Assembly: GCF_000265525.1 (NCBI RefSeq)
Contig: NC_018015.1
Location: 656,322-720,321, forward strand
DNA from: Thermococcus cleftensis
GTDB lineage: Archaea; Methanobacteriota_B; Thermococci; Thermococcales; Thermococcaceae
Reading direction: 5' to 3'
Length of the DNA: 64,000 nt
The position numbers and the translations under genes are program-made. Position 1 is the stretch's first letter. Each line of letters opens with the position of its first letter. The notes under the pieces were generated by a model. That model had not been told where the DNA came from, ran no database searches, and saw only the letters and a list, made by a program, of their open reading frames with translations. Below are positions 27,944 through 34,058 of the stretch, piece by piece.

Positions 27944-27956
27944 AACCTTTAAATAG
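27944..27956 (+). promoter_or_regulatory. Box A promoter of the two small helix-turn-helix genes
   Basis: AACCTTTAAATAG, with transcription expected to begin near 27980. Confidence 0.5.
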
Positions 27957-28013: not shown

Positions 28014-28229
28014 ATGAACAGCACAGTCAATCTGGAGGGTGAAATCAAGGACTTGCTCAGGCTTCACGGCCCACTGAGCGTGGCTTTCCTGACGAGGTTC
28101 CTCAACGAGAGGGGGCTGGACTGCACTAGGCAGAAGGTGGAGAGGACGTTGAGAAAGATGATCCAGCAGAAGAAGGTGGAGGCTTTTTACACCAACGGGA
28201 ACAGGAGAAAGCATTACCGTCTGCGGTGA
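28014..28229 (+). CDS. Small winged-helix-like DNA-binding protein
   Basis: A 71-residue protein: helices LEGEIKDLLRLHG, SVAFLTRFLNERG and TRQKVERTLRKMIQQKKV followed by a beta wing (VEAFYTNGNRRKHYRL). This is the minimal winged-helix pattern, so a local transcription regulator is likely. GGAGGTGGAGGT precedes the ATG. It is followed after 4 bases by a second helix-turn-helix gene and then the surface-fibre operon, which it may control. Confidence 0.65.
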   Translation: MNSTVNLEGEIKDLLRLHGPLSVAFLTRFLNERGLDCTRQKVERTLRKMIQQKKVEAFYTNGNRRKHYRLR

Positions 28230-28233
28230 TAGA

Positions 28234-28668
28234 ATGGGCGCAACTACAGCGATACTAGGAAACGACAGGAGAATGCTCATGGTGGAGTTCCTCCAGAAGA
28301 AGAACGGCCACGCAGAGCTGAGGGACATAGTTGAGTACATCGCCGAGATGGAAGGTGACACCGCCCGGAAGCACAGGAAAAGCGTGTACGTGAGCCTGAT
28401 GCAGACCCATATCCCAAAGCTGGAAAGGGAGGGGGTAGTAACTTTCAACCATGGCATCGTCACGCTCCTGAAGATACCGGACGATGTTACCGTCTACATG
28501 GAGGTCGTGAACAAGCACGACATCAGCTGGAGCGCCTTCTACCTGGGCACCTCGCTGATATTCATAGTCGCCGGTTGGTACCTGGGAAGCATGCCACTTC
28601 TTCTCGCGGCGCTGGTGTATCTGGCGATAAGCATCGTGCACCACAGAAAGATTAACCGGCTTGTTTGA
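28234..28668 (+). CDS. Membrane-anchored winged-helix-like protein
   Basis: A 144-residue protein. Residues 1-90 are predicted helical with a winged-helix feel (RRMLMVEFLQKKNGHAELRDIVEYI, then KSVYVSLMQTHIPKLEREGVVTFNHGIVTLL), similar in layout to the DUF7344 domain of other archaea. Two membrane helices follow (about 97-115 and 117-135). A membrane-tethered regulator that senses envelope state is a plausible role, but inferred. GGTGAT precedes the ATG. Probably co-transcribed with the preceding gene. Confidence 0.65.
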   Translation: MGATTAILGNDRRMLMVEFLQKKNGHAELRDIVEYIAEMEGDTARKHRKSVYVSLMQTHIPKLEREGVVTFNHGIVTLLKIPDDVTVYMEVVNKHDISWSAFYLGTSLIFIVAGWYLGSMPLLLAALVYLAISIVHHRKINRLV

Positions 28669-28755: not shown

Positions 28756-28768
28756 TTCCTATATAGCA
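28756..28768 (+). promoter_or_regulatory. Box A promoter of the DUF1102/signal peptidase operon
   Basis: TTCCTATATAGCA, with a leader of about 70 bases. A GGTAA/TTACC dyad at about 28722-28738 lies 18 bases upstream, where an activator or repressor could bind. Confidence 0.5.
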
Positions 28769-28860
28769 GAAGGGTCTTAGTGAGGTACAAGTGTCCCCGT
28801 GAAGTGCCATCTGGAGGTGGTGCCGAGAGATGCCGACTTGATATCCAGGAGGAAAACACC

Positions 28861-29493
28861 ATGAAGAAAGTTTTGGCCCTCGGTATGCTGGGGCTGATGA
28901 TCGCGGCGGCCTTCGCTTTGGGCACGAGCGCGACCTTCAGGGACTACCGCGTCCAGAGGAGCTCGCACATCGCCGTCGTTCCAGACGACAACGAGCTCAT
29001 CGATCTGACGCCCGTCCAGCCCTACGCGTACATCAACGATGGGGGGCAACTCGTTATTGACTTCTCAGAGAACAACCCGAACTGGCCCGGGCACGACGAC
29101 CCTAGCTGGGCGGAGTACCAGGGAGAACTTGAGGGGTACACCGGCAAGGGCATCGGTCTGAGCCCGCAGAGCAGGTACAACTTTGACCACGTCTTCAACG
29201 TGAGCAACCACCTCTGGGAGGACAAGGTCATAGTGGTCGAGGTCATCTCATCGGATCCCGGCAGGGTTTCATTCTATGACCCAGGAGAGAACATGTACAG
29301 CACAAACGGCAACAACATCCCCTACAACTCAGACACGGCTGTTGGAGACGTTTGCTTCTACCTTGAGCCAGGCGAGGCCCTTGGCGTGGGTATGGAGCTG
29401 GCGGCCGGGAACAGTCTTGGAAGCTACGACGTGACCATAACCGTCAAGGCCTGGCCCGCTGACGACGCACCGATTGACTGCGGAGGCTGGTGA
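28861..29493 (+). CDS. DUF1102 secreted protein, TasA/camelysin-like (first copy)
   Basis: A 210-residue exported protein. The hydrophobic leader MKKVLALGMLGLMIAAAFALGT is followed by SATFRDYRVQRSSHIAVVPDD, then a conserved block NELIDLTPVQPYAYIND. A T/S-x-F-x-(D/F) start right after the leader followed by beta strands recalls SipW-processed TasA/camelysin proteins, whose mature N-strand inserts into the next subunit. The remainder is a beta sandwich. The family name (DUF1102) is recognised; polymer formation is inferred. GGAGG lies before the ATG at 28861; the 27 upstream open codons are leader. Confidence 0.75.
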   Translation: MKKVLALGMLGLMIAAAFALGTSATFRDYRVQRSSHIAVVPDDNELIDLTPVQPYAYINDGGQLVIDFSENNPNWPGHDDPSWAEYQGELEGYTGKGIGLSPQSRYNFDHVFNVSNHLWEDKVIVVEVISSDPGRVSFYDPGENMYSTNGNNIPYNSDTAVGDVCFYLEPGEALGVGMELAAGNSLGSYDVTITVKAWPADDAPIDCGGW

Positions 29494-29498
29494 TCAAA

Positions 29499-30035
29499 AT
29501 GAAAAAGATAATCGGACTCTTCGTCCTTATAGCAGGGCTACTGATAGCCGTCACCGCCAGCAGTGCTAACTTCGCCTACTTTGAGGCGGACAGGAACGTC
29601 CATATCCAGGTTGTTCCCGACGACAACGAGCTCATCGACCTCAGGCCTATGCAGCCCTACGCGTACATCAACGACAACGGAATGCTCGTCATAGACCTCA
29701 GCCACAACAACGGCAACTGGGAAGAGGGATTCGGAGAGGGCGTCAGCCCGAACAGCACCTACATCTTCGAGGAAGTCTTCGGCGTGAGCAACGACCTCTG
29801 GGAGGGGACCCCGATATGTATGGAGATCACCTACAGCGGTGGCGACGAGGTCACGTTCTTTGAGGGTGACTATGTTGCCGGCCAGACCGTCGGTAGCGAC
29901 CACCTCACGGTCACCGTTATGCCCGGCGACGTCGTTAGGATCGGAATGATCATAAACACCACCGGAATCAGCGCGCCCGACTCACTGGACGGCCAGATAC
30001 AGTTCTACGCTGAGGCCGGCGAGTGCGAGAGCTGA
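29499..30035 (+). CDS. DUF1102 secreted protein, TasA/camelysin-like (second copy)
   Basis: A 178-residue paralogue of the preceding gene, sharing VPDDNELIDLRPMQPYAYIND, a NNGNW segment, SPNSTYIFEEVFGVSNDLWE and a C-terminal MPGDVVRIGMIINTTG block. The leader is MKKIIGLFVLIAGLLIAVTAS, then SANFAYFEADRNVHIQVVPDD. GGTGAT precedes the ATG at 29499, five bases after the upstream stop. Differences concentrate in the middle third, as expected for subunits with distinct positions or hosts. Confidence 0.75.
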   Translation: MKKIIGLFVLIAGLLIAVTASSANFAYFEADRNVHIQVVPDDNELIDLRPMQPYAYINDNGMLVIDLSHNNGNWEEGFGEGVSPNSTYIFEEVFGVSNDLWEGTPICMEITYSGGDEVTFFEGDYVAGQTVGSDHLTVTVMPGDVVRIGMIINTTGISAPDSLDGQIQFYAEAGECES

Positions 30036-30069
30036 TGAGCCGGTAAACTTTCGTTGTGGAGCGTTTGCT

Positions 30070-30093
30070 CCCCTTTTAGATTCTTCAAAGGGG
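30070..30093 (+). promoter_or_regulatory. Intra-operon hairpin that covers a ribosome binding site
   Basis: CCCCTTT (30070-30076) pairs perfectly with AAAGGGG (30087-30093) across a 10-base loop. The 3' arm is the GGGGG ribosome binding sequence of the gene starting at 30102, so the fold would hide it. Confidence 0.45.
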
Positions 30094-30101
30094 GAAGAGA
30101 T

Positions 30102-30611
30102 ATGGGGACAAAAACAGAATTCATTGCTGGCATTGGAATCATGATTATCCTGCTCATAGGGGCGGGGGGGCTTCACTCCTCTGACCCGATCGCGGTAGCA
30201 TACGCGACCCCCGATGGGGGAGAGTTCTCAATAGATTCCCCCGTCCCACCTTACTCGTACTCTGACGGCGGCGTTCTCGTCGTGGACATATCCCCGGACA
30301 ACCCCTTCTACTCGGAGGGAGGAACTGGACTGAGCATCAACAGCACCTACGTTTTTGATGACGTTTTCATCGTGGAGAACAATCAAAGCGAGACCGGTTA
30401 CGAGGTCATCTGCGTGAGGATCAGCTCGGATTTCATAGGAATTGGATTCTTCACCGGCCCATTCAACGGGAGCTGGTACGACGTGGTCGAGGTCTCCCTC
30501 AGGGCCGACGAGGGGACCGGAATAGGCATGAGGGTAAACACCACCGGACTTGAACTGGGTGATTACTGGGGCGAGATAACGATAGAGGCCTGGGGAGGAG
30601 ACTGTCGATGA
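30102..30611 (+). CDS. DUF1102-like secreted protein (third, divergent copy)
   Basis: A 169-residue exported protein with leader MGTKTEFIAGIGIMIILLIGAGG. Compared with the two copies upstream, it lacks the F-x-D start, but retains VPPYSYSDGGVLVVDISPDNP, GLSINSTYVFDDVFIVENN and GMRVNTTG blocks. It may cap or nucleate the fibre; that is inference. The ATG follows GGGGGAAGAG, which can pair in a hairpin. Its stop overlaps the signal peptidase start (ATGA). Confidence 0.68.
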   Translation: MGTKTEFIAGIGIMIILLIGAGGLHSSDPIAVAYATPDGGEFSIDSPVPPYSYSDGGVLVVDISPDNPFYSEGGTGLSINSTYVFDDVFIVENNQSETGYEVICVRISSDFIGIGFFTGPFNGSWYDVVEVSLRADEGTGIGMRVNTTGLELGDYWGEITIEAWGGDCR

Positions 30612-31672
30612 AGACTCTCCTCGAGTACAGCCTCCTGGCGGTTCTTGGAGTACTGGTCATCGGCTCACTGGTTGGAGCACTGCTGGACAGGCCAGTTTTC
30701 ATGTCGTACGCATATTCGGAGAGCATGACGCCCACGATAAACAAGGGGGACCTGTTCTTCATCAACCCCCTGGACAGGAGCCCAGAAGTCGGAGACGTGA
30801 TAGTGTTCAGGGTTGGGAGCACCTGGACGGTTCACAGGGTGGTTGCCATAATAGGAGATGGGTACGTAACGAAGGGAGACAACAACGTGGCAACCGACCA
30901 GCAGAGCCACAGCATACCCCCAATAGAGAAGGATCAGATCGGAGGGACGGTGATAGCCCCTGGCGGTCGCGTGATAACCGTACCAGAAGTGGGGAACTAC
31001 ATTGAGAACGGCCTCTCGGACAGGGGGAAGATCCTGCTCGGGGCCCTCCTCATCATCGTCGGGATACTTGCCTTCGGGAGCGGCGAGGCAAGGAGAAGGG
31101 GCGAGAGAAAGAGGTTCATCACCCTGAAGTTCAAGACCCTCTACCTGCTCGCCTCCTCGTTTCTCCTGCTCATGATAGCGGTGTCCATCTTCGTCTCCTG
31201 GGAGGTCATACCGGTGGAGTACTCCGTCACCTCCGCGGTGGGGGACCGGGAGGGCTGGTACGGGCCAGGGGAGGAGTTCCAGACAGAGATCACGGTGAAG
31301 AACAACAACATGTACCCGATGAGATACTACGTCTCCGCGCCGGAGCCCGTCACGGAGGTATCAAGCCCGGAGTTCGCCCTTTCACGTGGTGGGGAGAAGG
31401 ACCTCACCATCACGATAACCGCCCCCGAGGTCACCGCGGTGTACTCAACCAAGGTCACGCTGAACGCCTACCCGCCCCTGCTTCCGGAGTCGATTATGGA
31501 AGCCCTCTACCGGGTGCACCCCATGGTACCACTGATGGCCATACTGGCCGTCGTCTCGGCCTTTCTCGGAGTGGTTTACCTCCTCTCGGGAATAGGGAAT
31601 GAAGATGCGATTAGAATCAGGAGAAGGAAGCGTTCCAAGCTGAAGGGAATACCGGAGGTGTTTAGGTTATGA
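30608..31672 (+). CDS. Signal peptidase I (S26B/SipW-like) with C-terminal membrane and beta domain
   Basis: A 354-residue membrane protease. One N-terminal helix, then catalytic Ser39 in YSESMTPTINKGD and His76 in TWTVHRVV, with VTKGDNN nearby: the Ser-His form of archaeal and eukaryotic ER signal peptidases and of SipW. Two helices (about 137-155 and 170-195) follow, then an Ig-like beta domain (about 200-295), a last helix (about 305-330) and a basic tail. Ordinary Thermococcales signal peptidases lack this C-terminal half. Its location inside the DUF1102 operon points to dedicated processing of those proteins. Confidence 0.83.
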   Translation: MKTLLEYSLLAVLGVLVIGSLVGALLDRPVFMSYAYSESMTPTINKGDLFFINPLDRSPEVGDVIVFRVGSTWTVHRVVAIIGDGYVTKGDNNVATDQQSHSIPPIEKDQIGGTVIAPGGRVITVPEVGNYIENGLSDRGKILLGALLIIVGILAFGSGEARRRGERKRFITLKFKTLYLLASSFLLLMIAVSIFVSWEVIPVEYSVTSAVGDREGWYGPGEEFQTEITVKNNNMYPMRYYVSAPEPVTEVSSPEFALSRGGEKDLTITITAPEVTAVYSTKVTLNAYPPLLPESIMEALYRVHPMVPLMAILAVVSAFLGVVYLLSGIGNEDAIRIRRRKRSKLKGIPEVFRL

Positions 31673-33039
31673 GAGGCATCATTGCAGTGCTGATAACACT
31701 CACACTAGCATCACTTGTTATCGTCAGCTCAAGCGGGACTTTCGTTGGTTTTGACGCCACCCGAGAGGTCAAGGTCCAGGTGGTGCCGCACGAGCAGGAG
31801 TACATCGGCCTCGACTGCGAGGACGGCTACGCCGCGGTCATCGAGGTCGGCACGAACTCTGAACTCGATTTTGACGCGCTGACGGTCAGGAATTACCTCA
31901 ACGAGATGAAGGACGTCACGATCAGGCTCTACCCTGACTACTCAGGACTGCCGGGCGAGGTGGGCATGTTCGTGGAGACAGAGAACGGGGCCGTGAGGAC
32001 GCTTGTCTCCGAGGGGGAGTACACGTTCTTCGGAAACGTAACAGTCGGAAGCGCAGAGCCAGGGGAGTACATAGTCCCCGTTGATATGCTCGCCACGTGG
32101 GACGGCGGAGACGCGTCGATATCCACCTGCCCCATAAAGCTGGTCATCACGGGGAGCCCGACGATAGAAAAGGAGCTCCTGAATGGACCGCTGGAACTTC
32201 CAACCCATACTTACGCGGAGTGGACGTTCAGAATCACCGTGGGGAACCCCGGTGAGGAGCAGACACTCACGATAAAGGACGTGATCCCCGGAGAGTTCGA
32301 GATAGAGTCGATAGACCCGAGCGCCGGAACGTACACGGTAACGCAGACCGGGGCGGCGTACCACATAACCTGGGGGGTTTACCTTGGGACGGGTGAGAGC
32401 GCCCACATGAACGTGACGGTATACACCAAGCTCAACCCAGCTGGCAAGCAGGAGTTCACGTCCTGCGGTGACTACATACTGAACGAAGGGGCTGAGCTGG
32501 TGGAGTACGGCATCAAGAGTGAGGGCATAACCGTCCACGCGACCTGTGATGGTGGAGACTGTGACCTGTGCATAAGGAACCTGTGGCTCAGTGGCGCCAG
32601 GCACCTTCCCACCGACGCCCCCGCGGACTACAACACCAGAACAGTGGTAGAGAACATGGGGGACGGGAGGAAGCTTGTCGTGACACAGTACATCGGCTCG
32701 CAGTTCACCCTGACGAACTACGTACCGTCGAAGGGAACCGTCTCTGTGGAGGCCATGCCCGACGGAAAGACGCGTGTTACCTGGACCCTCTACCTGGCCC
32801 ACAACGAGGTAGCCCGGCTCAACCTCTACGAACACACTGACGGAATCCACACAAGCTCAAATACGTACGTCATGCTTACCACTACACCCTGCATTGCGGG
32901 CTGCGAGTGCCACGGCTGTGCCAAGTACGTGCACGTCTATTCCTGTGGCTGCCACGGGGAAGAGGGTCCAGAGGAACCGGACGTCTACGGAGGGGCTGAA
33001 ATCGAATCTGACTGTTGTACGGAGGAATGTGAAAGATGA
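31669..33039 (+). CDS. Large secreted TasA-like/DUF11-like protein with Cys-rich tail
   Basis: A 456-residue exported protein. The leader MRGIIAVLITLTLASLVIV is followed by SSGTFVGFDATREVKVQVVPHE, the same signature as the DUF1102 proteins. Residues about 25-165 form a first beta domain; two further beta domains (about 170-300 and 305-410) resemble DUF11-type surface repeats. The C-terminus (about 400-456) holds nine cysteines in 55 residues, with three more near residue 296-303, suggesting disulfides or metal sites. Start overlaps the signal peptidase stop. No membrane anchor at the C-terminus. Confidence 0.7.
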   Translation: MRGIIAVLITLTLASLVIVSSSGTFVGFDATREVKVQVVPHEQEYIGLDCEDGYAAVIEVGTNSELDFDALTVRNYLNEMKDVTIRLYPDYSGLPGEVGMFVETENGAVRTLVSEGEYTFFGNVTVGSAEPGEYIVPVDMLATWDGGDASISTCPIKLVITGSPTIEKELLNGPLELPTHTYAEWTFRITVGNPGEEQTLTIKDVIPGEFEIESIDPSAGTYTVTQTGAAYHITWGVYLGTGESAHMNVTVYTKLNPAGKQEFTSCGDYILNEGAELVEYGIKSEGITVHATCDGGDCDLCIRNLWLSGARHLPTDAPADYNTRTVVENMGDGRKLVVTQYIGSQFTLTNYVPSKGTVSVEAMPDGKTRVTWTLYLAHNEVARLNLYEHTDGIHTSSNTYVMLTTTPCIAGCECHGCAKYVHVYSCGCHGEEGPEEPDVYGGAEIESDCCTEECER

Positions 33040-34058
33040 ACAAAAAGAGCGTGGCGAAATTTATTGGAAGGAAGGAGGTTCTGGGAGTATTCCTGATCCT
33101 CTTCATGGTTTTCGCCTTTTATTCGGTAAAACTCATGAGCGCAAGTCCCTACGTCGTCACGACGCAGAGGGTTGGGACGTACAGTGAAGAGGGAACACTG
33201 AAGCACGAGGCGTATCTTGAACCGAACGACCTCTACGGTTACAGAGTAACCATGGACGAATACCCGATACCCCTGGTGGACAGATTCCTGCTGATCTACG
33301 ATTACCGCTCCAGCCCACCGCTGAAGGAAGGATCGTACCATATCCTCGTAAAGGCCGAGTACTACGTGAACAAGGGGAGCGACGAGGTAGTACTGTGGGA
33401 GGAGAAACTCTTTGACGAGAGAGGCAACCTAACGGGAGGCGCCTTCACCTCGGAGTACGTTCTGGACATGAAAGACTTCTCCAACACGAGCAACAGGATA
33501 ACCAGCGAACTTGGGGTGAGAAGGCTAAAGAACAGGATAACCATAGAGACCACCGTTACCGGGACCGGAACCGTCGGAGACAGGAAGATAACGGAAAGCT
33601 TCGACCACAGCGTCGAGCTGATACGGGACCCCACGGCGGAGCTCTACTACTTCACCGACACGAGCAAGGCCGAGAAGAGGGCGCTGACGGAAACCCTACG
33701 AACCGAAAAGGAGGCAAGTGTCCTTGGATTCAGCGGGAATCTTGGAACTGCCCAGACCGCGAGCACCGTGCTGGCAGCTCTGATGCTCATTCCCCTTCTC
33801 GGCTACGTCTACATCTCAAGGAAACCCAAAGACGAGCTGGCGGGGATCCGGGGGTACATGGTCAAGGGCGCCCCAGAAAAGGTCGAAAAGGTGGTCACGC
33901 TCAAGACGCCGAAGGACCTCGAGACCACCTTCGAGCTGATAGACAGGCCAATACTGCACTACCGGGAGGGCGATGAGGAAGTCTACGCGATAATAGACGA
34001 CGGAGTATCGTACGAGTACCGGAAGCTGCTGCCGGAAAAGGAGAAGGAAGCCAGCTGA
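33036..34058 (+). CDS. DUF5305 membrane protein
   Basis: A 340-residue protein with an N-terminal helix (VLGVFLILFMVFAFYSVKLM), an extracellular beta-rich domain (about 40-235), a second helix (TASTVLAALMLIPLLGYVYI, about 240-260) and an 80-residue cytosolic tail ending in a charged stretch. The DUF5305 family is recognised from memory and commonly lies next to signal peptidase genes in archaea. It probably anchors or assembles the secreted subunits. The ATG overlaps the upstream stop; a T7 tract follows the gene. Confidence 0.72.
   Translation: MNKKSVAKFIGRKEVLGVFLILFMVFAFYSVKLMSASPYVVTTQRVGTYSEEGTLKHEAYLEPNDLYGYRVTMDEYPIPLVDRFLLIYDYRSSPPLKEGSYHILVKAEYYVNKGSDEVVLWEEKLFDERGNLTGGAFTSEYVLDMKDFSNTSNRITSELGVRRLKNRITIETTVTGTGTVGDRKITESFDHSVELIRDPTAELYYFTDTSKAEKRALTETLRTEKEASVLGFSGNLGTAQTASTVLAALMLIPLLGYVYISRKPKDELAGIRGYMVKGAPEKVEKVVTLKTPKDLETTFELIDRPILHYREGDEEVYAIIDDGVSYEYRKLLPEKEKEAS

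Follow-up and report, generated by a model that had tools for sequence, protein, structure and literature searches.

A six-gene operon of Thermococcus cleftensis probably encodes a surface fimbria distantly related to the haloarchaeal Taf pilus

What do six consecutive genes of Thermococcus cleftensis, which join DUF1102 proteins to a signal peptidase of their own, build at the cell surface? The genes lie on the forward strand at positions 28861-34058 of the window, the 64,000-nucleotide stretch of contig NC_018015.1 (positions 656,322 to 720,321) analysed here, as delimited from the listing of its open reading frames. They encode, in this order, the candidate fimbrial subunits A (28861..29493) and B (29499..30035), the DUF1102 protein C (30102..30611), a dedicated signal peptidase (30608..31672), the larger subunit D (31669..33039) and a DUF5305 membrane protein (33036..34058). 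The last four genes are joined by 4-base overlaps at the C/signal peptidase, signal peptidase/D and D/DUF5305 junctions. The start of C is at 30102; several analyses took 30099, which adds one residue. An initial annotation had seen here a fibre operon of the SipW-TasA/camelysin type. In our analysis, the operon most likely makes and anchors a donor-strand-assembled surface fimbria, which would be a thermococcal relative of the Taf (Tafi) pilus of haloarchaea.

Five of the six encoded proteins were assigned to families above the cut-offs. Against the curated cut-off of 22.2 bits of Pfam DUF1102 (PF06510), A scored 133.3 bits (E 8.9e-39), B 139.8 bits (E 9e-41) and C 97.6 bits (E 9.7e-28). The signal peptidase was assigned to the archaeal/endoplasmic reticulum (ER)-type signal peptidase I family (TIGR02228, 58.9 bits versus a cut-off of 51.85), and the last protein matched PF17231 (41.2 bits, above the cut-off); the operon, with its dedicated signal peptidase and DUF5305 protein, is real and lies where it was first annotated. 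D, which had been described as a larger relative of the DUF1102 proteins, did not match Pfam DUF1102 and matched Pfam DUF11 weakly (E 1.6e-5). In a profile comparison, its N-terminal domain aligned with DUF1102 at E 6.8e-12 over 142 columns, falling to E 6.8e-8 when the leaders were removed and to E 5.6e-5, at a probability of 66%, when the N-terminal strand was removed as well. Judged by these profiles, the N-terminal domain of D is related to DUF1102, so that its described kinship holds by profile comparison and not by the Pfam model.

The locus is widespread within its family. DUF1102 was found in 87 of 94 Thermococcaceae genomes, or in 72 of 74 when only genomes with a completeness of 90% or more are counted; phylum-wide, 88 of 115 genomes carry it, the sole one outside the Thermococcaceae matching at E 9.9e-4. 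All four DUF1102 matches of the present genome fall within this locus. A scan of named genomes yielded 34 loci, from Thermococcaceae, from Geoglobus/Archaeoglobaceae and, in one case, from Halorubrum coriense. The order A-B-(C)-signal peptidase-D-DUF5305 is kept in the 33 Thermococcaceae and Archaeoglobaceae loci, contig ends being allowed for. By sequence search, these 33 loci contain A (33), B (32), the signal peptidase (32), C (14) and DUF5305 (27). Six loci lack DUF5305 and one lacks both B and the signal peptidase; all of these end at a contig border, and DUF5305 is present in 27/27 related loci with a contig long enough. D was detected in 24 loci; in five others a small, diverged frame occupies its place, and the remaining four stop short of it. 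The complete signal peptidases, from 31 of the 33 loci (two are cut by contig ends), are all 327-376 residues long. We consider the operon to be real, conserved and probably fibre-forming.

To which known proteins are these subunits related? Profile comparison aligned A and B with TafE (E 3.6e-11 and 1.1e-11, respectively), C with TafF (E 8.4e-10) and D with TafC (E 1.5e-6). The connection from DUF1102 to a solved pilin runs through the Halorubrum coriense locus (L068), whose proteins match both DUF1102 and Taf models. Two of them pass the DUF1102 cut-off (E 3.6e-7 and 6.9e-7); these bridge proteins or their close neighbours match the NCBIfam models of TafE (to E 8.5e-16) and TafA (to E 5.2e-10), and one L068 protein or close neighbour matches, at E 2.8e-12, the PDB entry 9p0a, which was deposited as the Tafi pilus pilin of Natrinema. 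The gene content points the same way. On a plasmid of Haloferax larsenii (L093), some 7 kb encode a long signal peptidase, a TafC that bears a lectin-like LamG domain, DUF7344, TafA, TafE, TafF and DUF5305, and every part of the window's system except a 71-residue protein has a counterpart there. Eleven haloarchaeal plasmid records hold a long signal peptidase; in five of the six that were viewed DUF5305 lies near it, and one of these five, from Halocatena, has an annotated DUF1102 protein. As far as sequence can tell, the subunits of the operon are homologous to Taf proteins, and by homology and locus content the operon is a member of the Taf-type fimbria superfamily. A search for TafF at E<=1 in 21 genomes of relatives gave two weak matches, none above the cut-off: the window's own B, with a matched stretch that ran past the stop codon, and one in another genome. 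Separately, the Halorubrum coriense locus encodes a protein (L068:5509-6999) that joins a TafE/DUF1102 domain with a right-handed beta-helix, a possible tip adhesin.

Donor-strand assembly is suggested by the N-termini. The leader is followed by the motif [SG][SA]xF in A (34/34), B (33/33) and D (24/25), where it takes the form AxFxx(Y/F), as in SATFRDY of the window's A and SANFAYF of its B. For this count, the D frames of L035, L036 and L053, whose start is misplaced, were cut back to the motif; they were excluded from the D-TafC profile comparison. In C the motif is absent (0/15). The leader and motif that the initial annotation ascribed to all four proteins are accordingly shared by A, B and D and not by C. 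A further strand reads VVPDDNELIDL in A and B and VVPHEQEYIGL in D, with ATPDGGEFSI at the same place in C. At the threshold used, none of 107 A, B, C and D proteins has a second hydrophobic stretch past residue 35. Two cysteines past residue 35, possibly forming a disulphide, occur in A (32/34), B (29/33) and C (14/15).

The AlphaFold model of B (predicted local distance difference test score, pLDDT, 79.4) leaves residues 21-30 unpaired in the monomer, with pLDDT <50, and this segment is more conserved than the remaining mature chain (0.79 versus 0.65). Foldseek searches of the model against the PDB returned AbpA of the Pyrobaculum bundling pilus (7ueg) at E 2.6e-4, the sole match below 1e-3 among the matches listed, with type 1 pilins next. 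With VIA, AbpA reached Z 7.9 over 113 residues and 9p0a reached Z 7.3. A sequence search of the solved structures with B alone returned nothing relevant. The extracellular fibre with a dedicated signal peptidase that the initial annotation proposed is in this way supported, through Taf homology and the AbpA fold match. The alignments used (A3, A4 and A5) covered 62 of 82 subunit sequences, 19 of 25 and 24 of 33 sequences, respectively.

Beyond its N-terminal domain, D consists of DUF11-like repeats and a Cys/His-rich C-terminus. Cys/His-rich clusters (up to 11 of 16 residues) were found in 13 of 25 D proteins and in none of 143 of the other five operon proteins. Given these clusters and the kinship to the lectin-bearing TafC, D is a candidate tip or capping subunit, perhaps metal-binding.

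How might the subunits be supplied in different amounts? Directly 3' of B, between B and C, lies a predicted RNA hairpin (GGAGC-GTTT-GCTCC, 30058..30071, forward strand), a candidate attenuator. All four outer pairs are present in 33 of 41 Thermococcaceae segments, and one pair shows a two-sided compensatory change, being G-C in 19 and A-T in 14. Single-locus shuffles do not reveal the hairpin (3/41 at p<=0.05); the case for it is made by the recurrence and the two-sided change. The background of the pairing test (52/776 anchors) includes the hairpins themselves. Eight segments did not pass this test: four of them (L049, L008, L016 and L021) lack the anchor, and in all of these another hairpin is visible by eye; the other four (L043, L031, L058 and L060) have the anchor without pairing. 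In 10 Archaeoglobi segments, which stood outside the pairing test, T-runs occur at the same place. The available text on the Pyrococcus furiosus archaellum operon describes terminator signals after the main archaellin gene (PMC10665913). By analogy, the hairpin after B probably sets the subunit excess: A and B would be made in excess because the hairpin would trim the transcript.

The signal peptidase carries an additional part. Ser39, His76, Asp91 and Asp97 are invariant in 24/24 aligned sequences, and in fold searches the catalytic part matched human SEC11 (7p2q, E 2.9e-5) and Streptococcus SipA. Past the catalytic part, the model (pLDDT 83.0) contains two helices, a seven-strand domain (residues 199-290, pLDDT mostly >90) and another helix. 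The domain would be extracytoplasmic if the flanking predicted helices span the membrane. Foldseek matched it to the CEP192 ASH domain (E 7.2e-4), to major sperm protein (MSP; E 8.6e-4) and to the Caf1M chaperone (from E 1.2e-3), and VIA gave Z values of at most 7.8, below the confidence level of the tool. Since these matches (E 7e-4 to 7e-3) span PapD, MSP and ASH domains, which also matched B, our term PapD-like denotes a fold class only. The region is kept in the Halorubrum signal peptidase (by hhalign, the C-terminal part as a whole gave E 1.3e-12 and the domain by itself 6.6e-8). This genome has two other signal peptidases: that at position 1118931 (193 codons) is too short for the extra domain and had no significant match to it, and that at 1145781 is an open frame of 177 codons. 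The former gene lies directly 3' of two small secreted-looking proteins (L090:4046-5477, or G000:C1:1118045-1119476), perhaps another dedicated cassette.

In the portion of the Bacillus study available to us (PMC10151520), TapA, whose gene overlaps sipW, donates a strand to TasA and supplies an Ig-type chaperone. By analogy, the fused domain of the signal peptidase could fill the role of TapA here. That the PapD-like domain caps the groove of a newly cleaved subunit and passes the subunit to the next donor strand is a tentative proposal, to which we give less than even weight. Equally speculative is its extension, an usher-less chaperone pathway in which one protein combines maturation and chaperoning, common to the Thermococcales, Archaeoglobales and Halobacteria loci examined.

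Taken together, these features suggest the following scheme, in which fibre formation, strand exchange, chaperone action, growth direction and all subunit roles are what we infer from homology, gene order, motif pattern and predicted folds. The dedicated signal peptidase would cut the leaders of A, B and D before xFxx(Y/F). Cleavage would free an N-terminal strand, xFxx(Y/F)..R, which would fill the groove of the subunit that follows. The main shaft subunits would be A and B, and D would stand at the tip or start of the fibre. C, having the subunit fold without a donor strand, would only accept one and thus end the chain at the membrane; it is a candidate base or anchor, and hydrophobic segments are found at the C-terminus of its L093 relative, TafF. 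New subunits would probably be held by the second domain of the signal peptidase until the next one comes. DUF5305 would probably complete the membrane assembly site, and we assign it no other activity.

Several observations weigh against this scheme. The fibre, the processing and the complex are read from genes and predicted single chains. The D-TafC match drops to E 0.0015 when the comparison leaves out the leader and the donor strand, and A and B are closer to TafE, which is named an adapter, than to TafA, the candidate pilin (E 0.0036 and 7.4e-5). No protein of the window reached the Taf equivalog cut-offs (NCBIfam NF052520-NF052523); the best match was B with TafF, at 17.8 bits versus a cut-off of 420, and A and D had none. 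Neither the DUF1102 profile nor that of D had a sequence match among the solved structures. On the structural side, the TM-score of B with AbpA is low (0.37), and the VIA Z of 7.9 is tied with MSP domains at a level that the tool calls common. Because such generic domains score equally, the modelled fold supports the kinship without proving it.

These weak points leave room for other explanations, of which the strongest is that the locus encodes secreted beta-sandwich proteins that do not polymerise, S-layer-associated or substrate-binding for example, and that are matured by their own signal peptidase. The fibre being known here by inference from genes, the fold class being a common one (VIA Z 7-8 for unrelated MSP domains) and DUF11-type repeats like those of D occurring in many surface proteins, this has something in its favour; we nevertheless judge it unlikely, in view of the homology to a PDB entry deposited as pilin, the same set of parts in the Taf locus L093, and the conserved segment at the N-terminus, which stays unpaired in the monomer model. 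Slightly less probable still is that A and B serve as adapters or minor subunits, with the main pilin encoded elsewhere and only base and tip made here. The closeness of A and B to TafE rather than TafA would fit such a role, yet every DUF1102 match of this genome lies within the locus, and a conserved hairpin after B is what would be expected of abundant subunits.

A true TasA/camelysin system, sharing a common ancestor with Bacillus sipW-tasA, is the least probable of the three, and we hold it to be very unlikely. It could draw on the signal peptidase, which weakly matches the SipW model NF046067 (E 5.2e-8), on the F-x-x-hydrophobic spacing after the leader, and on Halorubrum, where the long signal peptidase and DUF5305 lie at least 2.4 kb from a SipW/TasA-type cluster on the same contig (L086:6697-10325). 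Against it, the SipW match has 32.7 bits versus a cut-off of 190, and a search of this genome with PF12389 (TasA/camelysin) came back empty at E<=10. The SipW-dependent leader TIGR04088 was not found in A, B, C or D at E<=1, nor in A or D at E<=10, and the mature domains, compared as profiles with four TasA/camelysin-type proteins of haloarchaea, gave E 0.11-0.83. The TasA/camelysin homology that the initial annotation had read from the pattern was therefore not borne out, and of the fold comparison it had called for, AbpA came out best among the Foldseek matches of B listed, with camelysin kinship finding no support by profile. The absence of a TasA entry among the 50 matches listed per fold search of B (Foldseek, VIA) proves nothing either way. 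A TasA system is disfavoured by sequence; at the level of the fold, the two may share a distant common ancestor. With these alternatives weighed, the Taf-type fimbria remains our preferred reading, and its grouping with Taf rather than TasA follows from the Taf homology together with the failed PF12389, TIGR04088 and profile tests.

Upstream of the operon, two small genes on the same strand may regulate it. The first (28014..28229) encodes a 71-residue putative winged-helix regulator, which has relatives in many Thermococcaceae loci and no Pfam family above the cut-off. The second (28234..28668) encodes a DUF7344 regulator (PF24035, E 5.8e-18) with, by eye, C-terminal membrane segments; in 21 of 33 related loci, a DUF7344 gene immediately precedes A. 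Also by eye, a TATA-like box, CCTTTAAATAG (27946..27956), precedes the regulator pair, another, CTATATAG (28759..28766), precedes the subunit operon, and the putative ribosome-binding site of the latter is GGAGG (28848-28852).

Literature searches on Taf, Natrinema Tafi and DUF1102/DUF5305/DUF7344 returned no paper on this locus and none naming DUF1102, and a term search of the accessible text of a 2025 Thermococcales review (PMC12713403) found pili, fimbriae and filaments unmentioned there. Beyond the initial annotation, our analysis adds that C lacks the donor motif, that the signal peptidase has an extra domain and that a hairpin follows B; the new points are above all the PapD-like second domain, kept into haloarchaea, and the conserved hairpin. 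If the proposal is true, the genetically tractable Thermococcales would have a surface pilus, near-universal among them and outside the type IV class, the orphan Pfam family DUF1102, DUF5305 and DUF7344 would be tied to one system, and a testable model for building donor-strand fibres in single-membrane cells would be at hand.

How does the predicted fimbria compare with known systems? Chaperone-usher pili resemble it in the FimA-type pilins that come next in the fold matches of B and in the Caf1M chaperone among those of the signal peptidase ectodomain. They differ in that a two-domain PapD chaperone operates there, whereas here one predicted PapD-like domain is fused to a protease; the cell has a single membrane, and no usher gene was seen in the operon, no search aimed at ushers having been made. 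AbpA of Pyrobaculum calidifontis is the best Foldseek match of B among those listed, ties with MSP domains in VIA, and differs in that searches of the solved structures with B and the DUF1102 profile found no sequence match to it. The accessible part of a paper on Mth60 fimbriae gave no link to a signal peptidase or to TasA.

With the TasA/SipW/TapA system the operon shares the leader followed by an F-x-x-hydrophobic donor strand: the donor residues F29 and I32 of TasA are three apart in the portion of PMC9674648 available to us, as are the F and Y/F of the motif in A, B and D. It also shares a dedicated ER-type-like signal peptidase, whose extra domain possibly corresponds to the chaperone supplied by TapA. 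A sequence relationship of the subunits was not found, and no separate tapA-like gene was seen in the operon. To the Taf pilus (Natrinema sp. J7-2, 9p0a) it is linked by counterparts of TafE (A/B), TafF (C) and TafC (D) and by the long signal peptidase, DUF5305 and DUF7344 in L093. It differs from Taf in being one compact, co-directional operon with two shaft-type genes; in its short C with a single N-terminal hydrophobic segment, where L093 TafF has a linker and C-terminal hydrophobic segments; in its D, which carries DUF11-like repeats together with Cys/His clusters in place of the LamG domain of L093 TafC; and in scores that all fall under the Taf equivalog cut-offs. The predicted fimbria would thus work in the manner of TasA and AbpA and group by sequence with the haloarchaeal Taf fimbriae, the locus being most likely a distant member of the Taf kind, related to the Taf pilus and no copy of the TasA fibre of Bacillus.

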